A stretch of DNA of 33,331 bases, taken from a virus. Position numbers and translations under genes: made by a program. Positions within the stretch are counted from its first letter, which is position 1. Each line of letters begins with the position of its first letter. Under the pieces are notes generated by a model, which searched no databases, was not told the DNA's origin, and worked only from the letters and a program-made list of their open reading frames with translations. Shown here piece after piece: positions 821 to 22,603 of the stretch. The stretch is from positions 1-33,331 of the IMG/VR virus record IMGVR_UViG_3300012002_000174. One strand, written 5' to 3'.

Positions 821-996
821 TGGGAATTGGTGACTGGTTACCACAGTTGATAATTTTGCTTATATTTGGTAGTGTGCCGTATAGGAACCGAAACGCTAGT
901 AACAAAGATTTTTGGTATACAATCGTGGGGTTGGTTATTTTTCTTGGTTTACTTGTATGGGGAGGTTTCTTTGATGGCCTTCTTGGATGGAGCTAA
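820..996 (+). CDS. small two-helix membrane protein, unknown
   Basis: This 58-residue product starts at GTG, overlapping the upstream TAG (TAGTG) and preceded by a good Shine-Dalgarno AAAGGAG at 806-812. Two hydrophobic segments are evident: about residues 7-18 (LPQLIILLIFGS) and 33-56 (FWYTIVGLVIFLGLLVWGG onward). They are separated by a short polar, basic loop (PYRNRNASNKD), which fits a small integral membrane hairpin. Its stop overlaps the ATG of the next gene (TAATG). Function unknown. Small two-helix proteins in phages can be superinfection-exclusion or membrane-modifying factors, but nothing here shows that. Confidence 0.65.
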   Translation: MGIGDWLPQLIILLIFGSVPYRNRNASNKDFWYTIVGLVIFLGLLVWGGFFDGLLGWS

Positions 997-2159
997 TGAC
1001 TGATTACCAATATTCAAAACTATATACATTAGACGAAATACGCTGGGCTCGCGACAAGTATCTTGAATCGTTTCAGCAAGATAACTTAGTGGACTATATT
1101 CGCCGAGAGAAGATTAAGCGAATGAAAGAGGTTCCTACTCCATTGTTTGGGTTTGAGGAATCACTGTTTTCACAATTTGATATGCACCCGAACGATATGG
1201 AGTTCGAAGTTGTGTTCGCGGAATCTCGGGATCAACTCAAAGAGTTCTTTCAGTTGCTTGAGATTACTTCGTCACAGCTGATTGAGCAGTCCATTCCCGG
1301 TCGTTCGCTGAAGATTCTGGTGAGAGAAAAGAAGACGAATACCATCTTTGGATTTATTCGTATTGGTTCACCCGTAATCAATATGAAACCGCGGAATGTT
1401 ATTCTAAATACTCAAGATTATACTCAGAATCCCGGCCTACAACTTTTCAACGACCGGTCATATCTCGGTCAGATTATTGTACCTGCTCAACCTGCTGGAT
1501 TTAACTATGCAGCAGGAAAGTTGCTCTCGCTTGTATGTGTTTCTCACGAAGTTCGACAGAAGTTTAATGAGAAGTATGGTGTTGATATTGTGCTCTTTGA
1601 GACGACTTCACTATATGGAAGCATCAAAGCGCATTCTCAGTATGATGGTTTGAAACCATTCATTCGTAAGGGTGGACAGACTGAATCAGTCTTTATGCCT
1701 GCTATGCAGAAAGACTACTACATTCCATTGAGAAACTGGTTTGAAGAGCGACTTGGTGACCACTTGCTTGATCCAGAAATACCCTCTTCTCGAAAGATGA
1801 AAATTCAACGCCGTATGGAGTCGATTATTCTTAATGTTCTAAAGGAGAATGGTCAACTTGAAGAGGCAAAAGAGTGGTCTCAAGCACTGAAGGGTATTCA
1901 AAATCGAATGACGACTCAAAAGAACTATTACTATTCGACGATGGGGTTTGAAAACTCACTTGATTACATTATGAGTCGTGACTCTGAGAAGAAACCTGCT
2001 GAGAACTGGGACCGTTTTTACTTGTACAATCTCATTGAATGGTGGAGAAATAAGGCTGCTAATCGCTATGAGAAACTAAAGTCAGACGACCGACTGAGAA
2101 CAAAACTCGAAGTCTGGACGGATAAGGATATTCAAAAGGAAGTGGATATTGTAAGATAA
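996..2159 (+). CDS. DUF4338-like (DruA-type) protein, candidate
   Basis: The 387-residue product starts at the ATG overlapping the upstream TAA; an ATG nine bases earlier is in frame. By eye the middle resembles DUF4338, the domain of DruA of the Druantia defence system and of transposon-linked proteins. The order is LKILVREKK...FGFIRIGSPV (residues 105-127), a FNDRSYLGQIIVP block (151-163), a hydrophobic GKLLSLVCVS helix, then KYGVDIVLFETTSLYGS (193-209) and an FIRKGGQTE element (222-230). The C-terminal third is charged and helical with a WWRNKAANRYEKL segment. It has no signal peptide or membrane helix. It lies directly against the tmRNA-like RNA, with no gap. The assignment is pattern recognition only; biochemical function is unknown and a role in counter-defence or inter-phage competition would be speculation. 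Confidence 0.5.
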   Translation: MTDYQYSKLYTLDEIRWARDKYLESFQQDNLVDYIRREKIKRMKEVPTPLFGFEESLFSQFDMHPNDMEFEVVFAESRDQLKEFFQLLEITSSQLIEQSIPGRSLKILVREKKTNTIFGFIRIGSPVINMKPRNVILNTQDYTQNPGLQLFNDRSYLGQIIVPAQPAGFNYAAGKLLSLVCVSHEVRQKFNEKYGVDIVLFETTSLYGSIKAHSQYDGLKPFIRKGGQTESVFMPAMQKDYYIPLRNWFEERLGDHLLDPEIPSSRKMKIQRRMESIILNVLKENGQLEEAKEWSQALKGIQNRMTTQKNYYYSTMGFENSLDYIMSRDSEKKPAENWDRFYLYNLIEWWRNKAANRYEKLKSDDRLRTKLEVWTDKDIQKEVDIVR

Positions 2160-2261
2160 GGGGGTAACTTGGTATCGATTTAAGAAGCGCTTTGAGGCCT
2201 TAACTGCACTTTGCCCTGGCCAAGCTTCTTAGACACGGCAGTTCGATTCTGCCTACCTCCA
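2160..2261 (+). ncRNA. tmRNA-like RNA: tRNA-like domain without an mRNA-like domain
   Basis: The 102 nt fold into the two ends of a tmRNA. The acceptor stem is GGGGGTA (2160-2166) with TACCTCC (2254-2260), 7 bp including a G3-U70 wobble, the alanine identity element of tmRNA and tRNA-Ala. The discriminator is A2261 and no CCA is encoded. The T arm is GGCAG-TTCGATT-CTGCC (2237-2253). The stemless D-like segment CTTGGTATCGAT resembles the tmRNA UGG-x-UUCGAC consensus. An 8-bp perfect P2 helix, TAAGAAGC (2181-2188) with GCTTCTTA (2224-2231), takes the place of an anticodon stem. GACAC before the T stem resembles the tmRNA GGAC(G). Only 35 nt are enclosed by P2, instead of roughly 300 nt with pseudoknots and tag frame. 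A cloverleaf anticodon arm cannot be drawn. Its function is unknown. Confidence 0.7.
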
Positions 2262-2287: not shown

Positions 2288-3736
2288 ATGAAGTCATTTA
2301 AACAGTATATTCAATCACCATTTATAGCTGAAGCTGCATTATCAAGAGCAGAACTGATTAAGCCTTCGAAGAATGTTGAAGGTGGTATTCGCGCACAAGA
2401 TGTATACCAACATATTAAGCGTGGAGAACCACTACAGACCACAGATAAGAGTCGCTTTAATGGAGCTCCTATTGAAGTTGAGTTCATCAATAAAGAAATA
2501 GAGAATGCTTTCAAGTTTGGCAAAGAGGATGATATACCGTCTGGTGAAGTATTTCAAATGACTAGTGATTCAAGTATCAAAGTTAAACTATCAGAGATAC
2601 AAAAGACAAAGGAATTTGGTAGTTCGCGAGGCTCTGGTGGAGGAGCTGCTTCTACAGCTATTGTTGAAGCACTGCAATGTGTGTATTTCTCTTATGTCTT
2701 TAATATCAACAAATCATTGATTACAGAGGATAGTGTTACAAGAGCTCAACTTGAAGAAGCATTCAAGTATGTTCGAACTCCAAAGTCATTTGAAAAGCTA
2801 GTGAATACAAAAGAATTTGATGACCCAGAGTGGAAGCAAACATTTCGACAATCTGCGAATGACTTCTATTCTTGGTATCAATCTAACCGTAATGCTTCTG
2901 GGCCTTTCTTCTTTCATCGTGATTCTAAGTTCATGAATCAAATTTACAACAAGTTTCGAGATTTACAGAAAGATATGGGGTTATCTCTACAAAATGACAA
3001 ATGGAACCCCGGTGATGTTTGGTTAAGTACTTCAACTGGAGAGGGTGTAGTTGCGAATGACTATAACACGCTGAATCAGTATAATACTGCTGTAAATCAA
3101 GCATATATGTCTGGTGATTTAATGGCTATTTCACTTAAGAAACTATCTTCTAAGGGTGCGAAACTGACTGAATATAATGTACCCAACAGCAGACAACATC
3201 AAGAACCAAAAGTTCGACTGATGTCTTTGAATGGGGAGGGTGCTCGTCAACCATTCTTTAATAGTGCAAAATTGATTGTTGAGACTACTGATAATCGTAA
3301 GATTGACTTTCGATCATTCAGCAGAGATAGTTCTTTTCAAGGTGAAATCAAAGGAAAAGCTGCTGCTGGAGGAAAGGTCAGTCACGGTCCAATCAATGAC
3401 ATTTTGAAGATGCTGAACATCGAACAACTTCCTCCACAAAAGAAGATTACTTCAATTGCACGAAAACCAAATGAGCGATTTTACAGAGAGTTCTATAGTC
3501 TATTCAATCGATATGCTAAAGACGCGAATGATTACTCTGAGCAAGAGTTTATTGCTACTATTGAAGGTATGGACCGTGCGGATGCAAATGCATTTCGCTT
3601 CTCTAAGTATATGGCGTGCAAGCTATATGACATTCTGATACAAAACCGACAGAAAGTGGGTGAGGTTCTTGATGAAATCTTTAGCTATGCTTCTTCTTCA
3701 ACGAAAGTTAGCTCAGCGTTCATTAAGATTCACTAA
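2288..3736 (+). CDS. conserved T4-like phage protein, unknown function
   Basis: The 482-residue product begins MKSFKQYI. A glycine-rich central block, KTKEFGSSRGSGGGAAST followed by ALQCVYFSY, is the most distinctive feature and is shared, in my recollection, with uncharacterised proteins of T4-like marine phages. The C-terminal half is mixed charged with an RFYREFYSLF helix and ends FIKIH. There is no signal peptide, membrane helix or recognised catalytic signature. No good Shine-Dalgarno precedes the ATG; instead CTAAATA (2276-2282), a late-promoter-like core, sits six bases upstream, so the transcript could begin at or next to the start codon. The gene follows the tmRNA-like RNA by 26 bases. 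Function unknown. Confidence 0.75.
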   Translation: MKSFKQYIQSPFIAEAALSRAELIKPSKNVEGGIRAQDVYQHIKRGEPLQTTDKSRFNGAPIEVEFINKEIENAFKFGKEDDIPSGEVFQMTSDSSIKVKLSEIQKTKEFGSSRGSGGGAASTAIVEALQCVYFSYVFNINKSLITEDSVTRAQLEEAFKYVRTPKSFEKLVNTKEFDDPEWKQTFRQSANDFYSWYQSNRNASGPFFFHRDSKFMNQIYNKFRDLQKDMGLSLQNDKWNPGDVWLSTSTGEGVVANDYNTLNQYNTAVNQAYMSGDLMAISLKKLSSKGAKLTEYNVPNSRQHQEPKVRLMSLNGEGARQPFFNSAKLIVETTDNRKIDFRSFSRDSSFQGEIKGKAAAGGKVSHGPINDILKMLNIEQLPPQKKITSIARKPNERFYREFYSLFNRYAKDANDYSEQEFIATIEGMDRADANAFRFSKYMACKLYDILIQNRQKVGEVLDEIFSYASSSTKVSSAFIKIH

Positions 3737-5534: not shown

Positions 5535-6320
5535 ATGGCAGTATTTCACTTTATCTATGAAACGAAAAATTTGGTGAACGGTAAAAAATATATCGGAAAG
5601 CACTCAACGGATAACATCGATGATGGGTATATTGGAAGTGGTGTTGTGCTTAACAATGCTATCAAAAAATATGGTAAAAGTAATTTTTATCGGACTATTA
5701 TCCATTGGTGTGAGAATGAAAAGGAGCTTAATGCTAAGGAAACTGAGTTTATAACAGACGCTGTTGTACACTCGGCTGATTACTATAATATAGGCTATGG
5801 CGGACAGGGAGGTTGTATAATACTTAACCCTAAAAACCCCCGATATTCGGAGACCTGTGAAAAAATTAGTAAATCAGCAAAAGCTAAATCTGAATTTTAC
5901 AGTATAACTGCTAAAAAACTTCATTGCTCAAAAATTATAGGTATGTATGGAAGAAGACAATCCGAACATCAAAAAATGCGTGTCTCAAATGCATTGAAGG
6001 GAAAAAAGCACTCTAAAGAGCATATTGAAAATCAAAGAGAATCATTACTGAAAACAATTTCCGATCCAAATTATGTAAATCCAAATACTGGAAAACGTCT
6101 TAGTGAAGAAACAAAAAAGAAGATAAGTATGAACCATTCCGATGTTTCTGGAGAAAATAACCCCATGTTTGGCTGTAGGCATTCGGATGAAACTAAGAAA
6201 AAAATCTCTGAAGCAGCTGCTTCAAGAAAAAAAGTTAGATGCTCGGATTGTGGTCGTCTCATAACAGAGTCACAATTACCAAAGCATAAAAAAGCAAAGC
6301 ACGATACAACCTCTAAATAG
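5535..6320 (+). CDS. GIY-YIG homing endonuclease (Seg-like), with NUMOD3 repeats and zinc finger
   Basis: The 261-residue product has an N-terminal GIY-YIG nuclease domain: Y8 with KKYIGKH at 17-23, then DGYIGSG at 30-36, AIKKYGKSNF at 42-51, and an acidic KETEF segment at 68-72 likely to carry the catalytic glutamate. The centre holds NUMOD3-type DNA-binding repeats (GRRQSEHQKMRVSNA, GKRLSEETKKKIS, NPMFGCRHSDETKKKIS). The C-terminus is a C2H2-type finger with C236, C239, H251 and H256. This is the freestanding Seg-type architecture of T4-like phages. The gene is AT-rich, has its own late promoter and Shine-Dalgarno, and splits the phoH locus. It would cut a phoH allele lacking the insertion and be copied by recombination. 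Confidence 0.9.
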   Translation: MAVFHFIYETKNLVNGKKYIGKHSTDNIDDGYIGSGVVLNNAIKKYGKSNFYRTIIHWCENEKELNAKETEFITDAVVHSADYYNIGYGGQGGCIILNPKNPRYSETCEKISKSAKAKSEFYSITAKKLHCSKIIGMYGRRQSEHQKMRVSNALKGKKHSKEHIENQRESLLKTISDPNYVNPNTGKRLSEETKKKISMNHSDVSGENNPMFGCRHSDETKKKISEAAASRKKVRCSDCGRLITESQLPKHKKAKHDTTSK

Positions 6321-19654: not shown

Positions 19655-22603
19655 ATGCTGAACTATAAAGCTAATTCTCTCAGTAGTGTTATTCCAAAGA
19701 AAATATATGAGAATAATCCTCGACTTCAAGAGTTTTTGAGTATTTACTATGAGTGGCAATATAAGACAACGGTACACACCAGAGGTGGAGTTGGTGTTGG
19801 TAACTTAAACTTGTCTTCAAAGGTAAAATCAACTGAAACAAATGTGAATGCGGACATTGAAGCAGTTATTTCAAGCTCATCCTTTGTGACTGAATTCGAT
19901 GAAGTTAACACATTCATTGTTGATGAAAAGATTTGGTCGTATATTGACTTAAGTGATTCATTAGAACTAACACTTTCATCATCAAATGACTACTTGCTTA
20001 ACAATATCAAGAAAACTTCAATAACTCTATTTCGTGGATTTTCTTATAATATCTTGAATAACACAAGTGAATCAGTTTACATTAAGTTTGCTAAAACAAT
20101 TGGGACAGATGAGCAACTATCTACGGTGCAAAATAACGGGTCCGATTCTGGTATAATCACTATTGATGTTAATGAAAGTGCTCCCAATTTTTTGTTTCTT
20201 TATAGTTCTTCAGGTAGCTATTTGCTAACAATAAAGGTCGAGTATGTTCCCGAGCTATATAATATTGTCGAGACAAATGTAAGTCCATTGTTCTTTACGA
20301 TTGTGAAGAACATCTTTTTTCATACAGAGTATTTGTATCAAGTATTTGAGGGCTTAAATTCACCGTCTATACCTAATGCTCTTTTTCAAAGATACGCGGA
20401 AAGCTATGGCCTGGACACATTCTTTCGAAACAACTTTCGATTCAAAAGTTTCTTTGATAACTTTGTTGAATTCTTTCGACAAAGAGGAACAAACGCTGGT
20501 ATAAAATACTTCTTTCGAAACTTCTTCGATACAGATGTTCAACTTGACTTTCCAGGAGAGCGAGTACTTCGTTCATCTCAGTCTGATTTCTTTTCATTTG
20601 ATGAACTATTTGTATCTGTTGAATATGCGGGGCCATTAACTAGTAATCAGACAATTGTTGGAGACTTGTCAAAAGCGGAAGCAACAATTGAAGCATATTC
20701 ATATGATACGAACAGAGACTACTATAAGCTATTTCTTAAAAGAAGCAAGACGACAGCTTCATTTCAAATTGGTGAAAGCTTCAAAGTTAAAGACGATGAT
20801 GAACCATCAATAAGATATGAAGTTGGTGGCCAAGTATTAGGTAATATATCTAACATCGAAATTGTAGAGCCTGGAAATGAATATACAGTCGGCCAAACAA
20901 TCTCTGATAGCTTTACATTTGGTGGAATAACATCTCAGGTTGATGTTCGCGTTGATGCGGTCAGGGACTCTCCAATTAGTAGAATTCGAATTAATTCTCC
21001 TGGTGAGGGATACGAAGTTAATGATGAAGTTATTTTTGTAAAACCAGAAAAAAGAACAAAATTCTCTGGTATTGTACAACCGGACCCTAATAGTGGAGAA
21101 GATAAGTATACCTCAACAGAAATTGGCATTATATTTGAGGATTTGAGTGAATACCAACCTATTGATTTTACGAATGCTACATTTCGAATCGATGCGACTC
21201 CATATATCGTTAATAGCTATACTACTGGTAGTCCAGATGTTATAACTGTACAATCTGATACAACACCAAATGTAACACCAACTGTAAAATCTGGACAACC
21301 AATAACATTTGATGTATTAGAAAGTAATGTAACGGACCCCTATTTTGATGTAAATGGTGTATACTTTCAACCCTCAAATACAACTGTTAAAAGAGGTGCA
21401 AGAGGATATATTACAAGCGTAACAGCTTCTGGAGCTATTGAAGATATATTCATTCAAGATCGTGGATATGGGTATATTAAGCGCCCAAATACATTGGATG
21501 ATAGCATACAAATAATCACTACATCGGGAAACTCTGCTGATCTTGAAGTTATCGGCTCTAATTTTGGCAGTATTGAATCTCTTACAAAAACAAATGACAC
21601 TGTTGGTGCACAATTTACAGAAACCATTGAGTTAGATAAAGGTGGACCAGCTGATGATAATGCAAAAATAAGTCTTGTAGTTGGGCCATTTTCTCAGTAT
21701 GGAAACTTTTTCAGAGGAAATCAAGGGTTCATATCCGATGATATCTATATTCACGATTCGTTATTCTATCAAGACTATTCTTATGTTATTCAGTCAGATT
21801 TAAACATATCAGATTTTGCAACACTTCTAAAAGAGTTAGCTCATCCCGCTGGTATGATTTTCTTCAACCAGTTCTTTATCACAAGAGTTTTTTCGCAAAA
21901 GCTAAATCAAGGCTCAGAGATACCAAATGTTTTCAGAACAATCACAATTAACAAAGAGCTGGTTTCACCATTACTATTGATCGGAACATTAATTGTTGAT
22001 GTTGTACCATTTCTTACTTCTCTGCGCACAAAGCAAATCTTGAATAAGTTTCGTTGGTTTTCTGAGACTCCGTTGGAATTAGATAATGTTGCTTCAGATT
22101 TGAATATTGCTACAGCTTCTGGTACAACAGTTTCTGGGTATAAGGATGTAACTCTCAAAGATGAAACTTTGATAAACCGAGATTCGGATGAAACACACTT
22201 TCAAACAAATTCGAATTTGTTTTTGGAGACAACTGTTAGTGGAGCAGGAACTGTTTCATATGCTGGTACAACTTCGGGCGTATCTTATGAAGGCTTCGCA
22301 ACTATGAGCGGAACATCAACAAGCTTTTTGTCTGCAATAAATACACAAGATATTATTAAGGCTGAGGGTGAATCATTCTGGGTACATAAAGCTCTGACAG
22401 ATACTGAACTAATTGTACAACGCCTAAATACCAATGGTCCCGTATCGATCACGAATAGCATTTATACAATTGATGTTCGAAGAAATACTAAGCTAGAAAA
22501 TGCAAACTATACAGATATATTATACTTTGGTGATAATATAACATTCAGCGGCGACTCTGGTGAATTCACTTTTCAAGAATTGAATGAGATACCTATAAAT
22601 TAG
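19655..22603 (+). CDS. 7: gp7 baseplate wedge protein
   Basis: The 982-residue product sits between gp6 and gp8, the T4 position of gp7 (1032 residues). The N-terminus NNPRLQEFLSIYYEWQ and the helical block FRFKSFFDNFVEFFRQRG followed by TNAGIKYFFRNFFDTDVQ (residues about 265-300) are typical of gp7 in cyanophage-like genomes, while the middle is made of beta-rich modules (IEIVEPGNEYTVGQT and a similar RIRINSPGEGYEVNDEV). The ATG at 19655 has AAGGA at 19643-19647. An overlapping ATG at 19651 in another frame stops at once. In T4, gp7 links gp6/gp53 with gp8 and gp10. Confidence 0.85.
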   Translation: MLNYKANSLSSVIPKKIYENNPRLQEFLSIYYEWQYKTTVHTRGGVGVGNLNLSSKVKSTETNVNADIEAVISSSSFVTEFDEVNTFIVDEKIWSYIDLSDSLELTLSSSNDYLLNNIKKTSITLFRGFSYNILNNTSESVYIKFAKTIGTDEQLSTVQNNGSDSGIITIDVNESAPNFLFLYSSSGSYLLTIKVEYVPELYNIVETNVSPLFFTIVKNIFFHTEYLYQVFEGLNSPSIPNALFQRYAESYGLDTFFRNNFRFKSFFDNFVEFFRQRGTNAGIKYFFRNFFDTDVQLDFPGERVLRSSQSDFFSFDELFVSVEYAGPLTSNQTIVGDLSKAEATIEAYSYDTNRDYYKLFLKRSKTTASFQIGESFKVKDDDEPSIRYEVGGQVLGNISNIEIVEPGNEYTVGQTISDSFTFGGITSQVDVRVDAVRDSPISRIRINSPGEGYEVNDEVIFVKPEKRTKFSGIVQPDPNSGEDKYTSTEIGIIFEDLSEYQPIDFTNATFRIDATPYIVNSYTTGSPDVITVQSDTTPNVTPTVKSGQPITFDVLESNVTDPYFDVNGVYFQPSNTTVKRGARGYITSVTASGAIEDIFIQDRGYGYIKRPNTLDDSIQIITTSGNSADLEVIGSNFGSIESLTKTNDTVGAQFTETIELDKGGPADDNAKISLVVGPFSQYGNFFRGNQGFISDDIYIHDSLFYQDYSYVIQSDLNISDFATLLKELAHPAGMIFFNQFFITRVFSQKLNQGSEIPNVFRTITINKELVSPLLLIGTLIVDVVPFLTSLRTKQILNKFRWFSETPLELDNVASDLNIATASGTTVSGYKDVTLKDETLINRDSDETHFQTNSNLFLETTVSGAGTVSYAGTTSGVSYEGFATMSGTSTSFLSAINTQDIIKAEGESFWVHKALTDTELIVQRLNTNGPVSITNSIYTIDVRRNTKLENANYTDILYFGDNITFSGDSGEFTFQELNEIPIN

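Follow-up and report, generated by a model that had tools for sequence, protein, structure and literature searches.

tmRNA is the ribosome-rescue RNA of bacteria, and a short stretch of the viral record IMGVR_UViG_3300012002_000174 raises the question of whether a phage tmRNA can consist of its tRNA-like domain (TLD) only and, if so, what such an RNA would do. The stretch occupies positions 2160-2261 (+ strand) of the record, whose 33,331 nucleotides are referred to here as the window. It is a complete tmRNA tRNA-like domain without an mRNA-like domain. A TLD-only phage tmRNA has already been described, in mycobacteriophage DS6A, but the form is rarely recorded, and the window element is a further member. 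The breadth of this form in phages and the conservation of its alanine identity appear to be new.

Structure of the window element

The element and its two neighboring genes are laid out as follows:

987..2159, + strand: upstream gene X, 390 aa, phrog_19197 (unknown function; PHROGs, E 9e-117)
2160..2261, + strand: TLD-only (mini) tmRNA, 102 nt (R1 covariance model, MFE fold, chance test)
2160..2166, + strand: 5' strand of the acceptor stem, GGGGGUA, with G3 at 2162; 7/7 pairs with 2254-2260
2167..2178, + strand: ACUU and the stemless D-like segment GGUAUCGA (2171-2178); column-by-column match to relatives, 5' end as in full-length phage tmRNAs
2179..2188, + strand: 5' strand of P2, UUUAAGAAGC; in-register 10-bp helix with 2224-2233
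2189..2223, + strand: 35-nt loop where a standard tmRNA has its mRNA-like domain and pseudoknots, with inner pairing GGCC...GGCC (fold, P2 register)
2224..2233, + strand: 3' strand of P2, GCUUCUUAGA; pairs with 2179-2188
2237..2253, + strand: T arm, GGCAG-UUCGAUU-CUGCC (pairing, relatives; weak match to the cyano_tmRNA T arm)
2254..2261, + strand: 3' strand of the acceptor stem, UACCUCC (U70 at 2258), and discriminator A73 (2261); CCA not encoded
2288..3736, + strand: downstream gene Y, 482 aa, phrog_1462 (unknown function; PHROGs)

All parts of a tRNA-like domain that the initial annotation had recognized from the sequence (acceptor stem with G3-U70, A73, D-like segment, T arm, and P2) lie within 2160-2261 where it placed them. 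The helix it described as a perfect 8-bp P2 is present, but its length was misjudged: P2 comprises 10 bp in register, including one U-G pair. The MFE fold of the element is exactly the TLD architecture, at -33.9 kcal/mol (z -2.1). The spacing of the two halves was also read correctly, since the loop between the P2 strands (2189-2223) measures 35 nt and leaves no room for a tag reading frame or a pseudoknot domain. The 14-codon frame previously pointed out at 2188-2232 does exist (CGC TTT GAG ... TCT TAG), and its stop codon at 2230-2232 falls inside the 3' strand of P2. The alanine identity elements, G3-U70 (2162/2258) and A73 (2261), are both present.

Standard annotation does not recover this RNA: ARAGORN did not call the element in the window, Rfam gave no match to it at gathering score, and RF00023 run alone likewise gave none. 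A covariance search had been proposed as a check, and where the Rfam models miss the element, our covariance model R1, derived from 46 sequences that exclude the window element, scores it at 55.7 bits (E 4.8e-11) across the full model; cross-matches of R1 to tRNAs score about 20-28 bits. Among 300 first-order Markov random windows of 33 kb, the paired ends alone arose twice and the paired ends together with the D-like motif never.

Three other identities were considered and set aside. An ordinary tRNA whose anticodon arm is unusual does not fit, as the D stem and anticodon arm are lacking and both ARAGORN and the Rfam tRNA model are empty here. An integration-site remnant, which would hold the 3' end of host ssrA only, is unlikely because both ends are there and paired. 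Nor is the element a permuted two-piece tmRNA, since its 5' half precedes its 3' half.

TLD-only tmRNAs in other phages

A search for the same element in related phages, also suggested at the outset, was productive. We found at least 177 distinct RNAs of the TLD-only form, 62-137 nt long, window included (about 151 clusters), nearly all of them in viral contigs. A pattern search for tmRNA ends around a short interior yielded 45 matches in viral sequences and 89 in genome contigs; a complete 7-bp acceptor stem and 5-bp T stem were present in 28 viral matches (window aside) and in 3 of the 89 genome-contig matches. Searches with shorter and longer interiors added at least 124 further RNAs from viral contigs. 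The full set of at least 177 combines these pattern searches with one search in which the ends were left free; the patterns used bias which RNAs were found, and the metagenomic contigs are fragments.

The dominant size class among the matches listed is 75-84 nt, in which an inner hairpin such as CCGCAYGCGG is frequent. In the shortest relatives, at 62-64 nt, just a few bases separate the two P2 strands. In a subclass of 106-109 nt, the interior is branched and conserved, with a GCGAAAGC or GCGCAAGC hairpin and GATTA..GCCC, and the RNAs sit mostly within tRNA arrays; its members include L124, L127, L135, L140, L141, L143, L145, L147, L155, and L223.

Six phages that have been cultured and sequenced (Shaeky, BRock, LuckySocke, GiJojo, pSt2308, and Jojan60) also carry mini-tmRNAs. 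Unannotated ones are found in Streptomyces phages, to which LuckySocke and BRock belong, and in the Stenotrophomonas phage Jojan60. A degenerate copy is found in Alone3. In GiJojo, gene 44 (L480, 1499-1741) is annotated over the mini-tmRNA and is probably a wrong gene call. Searching cultured phages with blastn gave no match for the window element or for 24 of the 45-75-gap relatives, and the 79-nt class gave matches.

RF00023 scored above its cut-off in 29 of the 32 mini-tmRNA records tested, with most relatives at 51-73 bits, and gave nothing for the window. Its best match in the MAGs of L223 and L229 is a standard full-length tmRNA, and the L229 mini-tmRNA itself appears below the cut-off. 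Full-length phage tmRNAs of 320-400 nt have 5' and 3' ends like those of the window element. Separately, L050-L052 hold apparent full-length tmRNAs in which the D-like segment is GGGTATAGC rather than GGTWTCGA and the 3' end is that of the window element.

Conservation of pairing and of alanine determinants

Compensatory changes in P2, the T arm, and the acceptor stem, which the initial annotation had named as a further check, are extensive in the alignment. Acceptor and T-stem pairing was imposed by how the sequences were selected, so these stems are not independent tests of covariation; P2 pairing was not selected on. With P2 in a fixed register, each of its six pairs varies on both sides, and 88% of cells are paired. 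The covariation score of the whole structure is 0.754, compared with 0.165 for shuffled and at most 0.152 for slid alignments.

The alanine determinants are nearly invariant. G3-U70 is found in 176 of the 177 mini-tmRNAs listed, for which most searches fixed U70 and left G3 free. A set of 68 RNAs was recovered using only the D-like segment and an inner hairpin, with the ends unconstrained; pair 3-70 is G-U in 66 of these and A73 is present in 68/68. The adjacent pair 4-69 in the same 68 RNAs is GC in 41, CG in 19, UA in 5, AU in 2, and GU in 1, leaving 27 off the commonest type. LuckySocke, GiJojo, and BRock, which were found by BLAST, have U4-A69 and retain G3-U70. Since G3-U70 and A73 are held while pair 4-69 varies, these patterns point to selection for charging of TLD-only tmRNAs by alanyl-tRNA synthetase (AlaRS).

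Gene neighborhood

The window phage is a marine, T4-like phage, with a gp32-type SSB, helicase loader, DNA end protector, tail tube, and head closure, and its nearest relatives are among the cyanophages and pelagiphages. Its mini-tmRNA begins (2160) directly behind the gene X stop codon. Neither a mini nor a permuted tmRNA was found at about 129 loci with homologues of gene X or Y, and the search next to homologues of both flanking genes found no closely related copy of the window element. At those loci, R1 gave one weak match, which is a tRNA-Gly gene; in the relative L249 it fills the position right after gene X that the mini-tmRNA has in the window. Further weak R1 matches in records with gene X or Y homologues score 20-28 bits and are tRNA genes where checked. 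Gene X neighbors the clamp-loader and regA genes in the cultured cyanophages examined, where the packing is mostly tight and a mini-tmRNA is absent. The window also contains an open reading frame at 5535-6320 with, judged by eye, a GIY-YIG-like start (HFIYETKNLVNGKKYIGKHS); it lies between phage core genes and may encode a free-standing homing endonuclease.

Across the wider set, mini-tmRNAs tend to accompany tRNA genes. Among the matches listed, 31 of 177 lie within 50 nt of a tRNA gene (7.9 expected at random positions), about a quarter are near tRNA genes, and all of the nearby tRNA genes (121/121) are on the same strand. In Shaeky, the mini-tmRNA lies between the tRNA-Phe and tRNA-Leu genes of an array. 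The phage contigs L587 and L588 carry large tRNA arrays that include a tRNA with a CTA anticodon, called tRNA-Pyl by ARAGORN.

No SmpB gene was found in any of 51 mini-tmRNA records, window included, so host SmpB would be needed for any SmpB-dependent activity. An RF-1-domain release factor was absent from 50 of these 51. Contig L601 (behind L437), which has a mini-tmRNA, carries an RF-1-domain release factor gene that may encode a phage-borne rescue factor.

Comparison with described tmRNAs

The window element shares its acceptor stem, D-like segment, P2, and T arm with standard one-piece tmRNA (RF00023), which in addition has an mRNA-like domain and pseudoknots; the window element has neither and is not matched by RF00023 at gathering score. 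The initial annotation was aware of no earlier description of such a phage RNA, a statement that DS6A overturns: PMC4131195 (Table 2) and PMC11915505 list its tmRNA as 'TLD only', a phage RNA that, as described there and like the window element, has little beyond the tRNA-like domain. DS6A infects mycobacteria, in contrast to the T4-like window phage and its cyanophage and pelagiphage relatives. A description of the wide phage family of TLD-only tmRNAs was not found in the literature we searched. For the DS6A form, PMC4131195 and PMC11915505 cite Mao et al. 2009, RNA Biol 6:355. The 2025 tmRNA database counts 9 standard tmRNAs that lack a tag frame among 97,179, and its phage tmRNAs total 79 (PMC11915505).

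Reduced tmRNAs are also found in organelles. Jakobid mitochondrial tmRNAs (Jacob et al. 2004, as described in PMC3985003 and PMC11915505) likewise lack a tag frame and pseudoknots but, unlike the window element, are organellar, one- or two-piece, and usually permuted. The plastid tmRNAs of Mallomonadaceae, CDS-less and about 65 bp long, fall in the size class of the 62-64-nt phage RNAs but are plastid genes (PMC11915505). Those shortest phage forms are also close to the construct in the crystallized SmpB-TLD complex, whose 5' and 3' TLD parts were joined by UUCG (PMC3985003).

Permuted two-piece tmRNAs (Melnitz, PMC9004378) likewise occur in marine phages of the T4-like type, some of them related to the window phage, but differ in gene order: in S-SSM7 and S-CAM3 the 5' half comes just after the 3' half. 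S-SSM7 (L478, record 21008-21056) and S-CAM3 (L479) were considered as mini-tmRNAs and turned out to be permuted full tmRNAs; PA_L9 (L485) and Tunturi_4 (L484) also look permuted. In these four cultured phages, the permuted genes either lack annotation or lie under hypothetical protein genes. In Tunturi_4 (L484, 816-1163), an RF-1-domain release factor gene, possibly for a rescue factor, stands beside the permuted tmRNA.

Possible functions

We favor, as rather probable, a role for the window element as an alanylated decoy of SmpB and the ribosome that damps host trans-translation. The mini-tmRNA would be co-transcribed with the flanking phage genes and probably cut out by tRNA-processing enzymes, with RNase P acting at the 5' end. 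CCA would be supplied by the host, whose AlaRS would charge the RNA with alanine and whose SmpB and EF-Tu would bind the charged form. Without a tag frame, the RNA would compete with host tmRNA for SmpB and stalled ribosomes, and this competition may damp trans-translation during infection, an inhibition published for the DS6A form. The initial annotation had already raised a decoy or inhibitor of host trans-translation as a function. By analogy, the proposal agrees with what PMC4131195 and PMC11915505 report: that a DS6A-type TLD molecule strongly inhibits tmRNA, perhaps through SmpB titration. A similar TLD is reported in the former to inhibit whether chargeable or not, which counts against a decoy that has to be charged. 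Conversely, a pure SmpB sponge needs no G3-U70, and the near-invariance of this pair counts against a simple sponge.

The main rival to the charged decoy is tagless rescue, in which the charged mini-tmRNA and host SmpB would take over the nascent chain at a stalled ribosome and a host release or rescue factor would free it untagged, sparing phage proteins the proteolysis tag. We consider this unlikely, though it stays alive because G3-U70 and A73 are near-invariant while neighboring pairs change, suggesting a need for charging; in mitochondria, tmRNAs that lack a tag frame also persist together with SmpB (PMC11915505, PMC3985003). Against it, a mini-tmRNA offers no termination codon to end the chain, an RF-1-domain release factor is missing from 50 of 51 records, and the effect published for the TLD-only form is inhibition (PMC4131195). 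The charged decoy is the most likely reading. More broadly, we propose tentatively that TLD-only tmRNAs are a common, largely overlooked phage class, selected for alanylation, that may act as charged tagless rescue or poison molecules and not as simple SmpB sponges.

Other explanations fare worse. The shared 5' and 3' ends of full-length phage tmRNAs and degenerate copies such as that of Alone3 are what one would expect of a decaying, functionless phage tmRNA with its middle deleted, but this is improbable and, for the family, already contradicted by sequence comparison: all stems are paired in many divergent copies, with compensatory change, the alanine identity is conserved, and several size classes recur. 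Translation of a hidden very short tag, from the 14-codon frame or a similar one, is more doubtful still; an open frame is present and two-residue tags have been reported (PMC11915505), yet the frame stops within P2, is unlike a degradation tag in sequence, and would have few bases to occupy in the 62-64-nt relatives. That the window is a single metagenomic contig could suggest a fortuitous match or a chimeric deletion, a reading left scarcely credible by the chance test, the R1 score, and the same form in the six cultured phages.

Biological significance

Phages appear to use the TLD-only form widely, most likely, by analogy with DS6A, to jam host ribosome rescue. These mini-tmRNAs are missed by standard annotation or have protein genes drawn over them. 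With at least 177 tagless tmRNAs and the cases in cultured phages, what had been a single curiosity in DS6A becomes a strategy that recurs among phages, directed against ribosome rescue or working within it, and the cultured phages make it testable why phages carry a non-tagging tmRNA.
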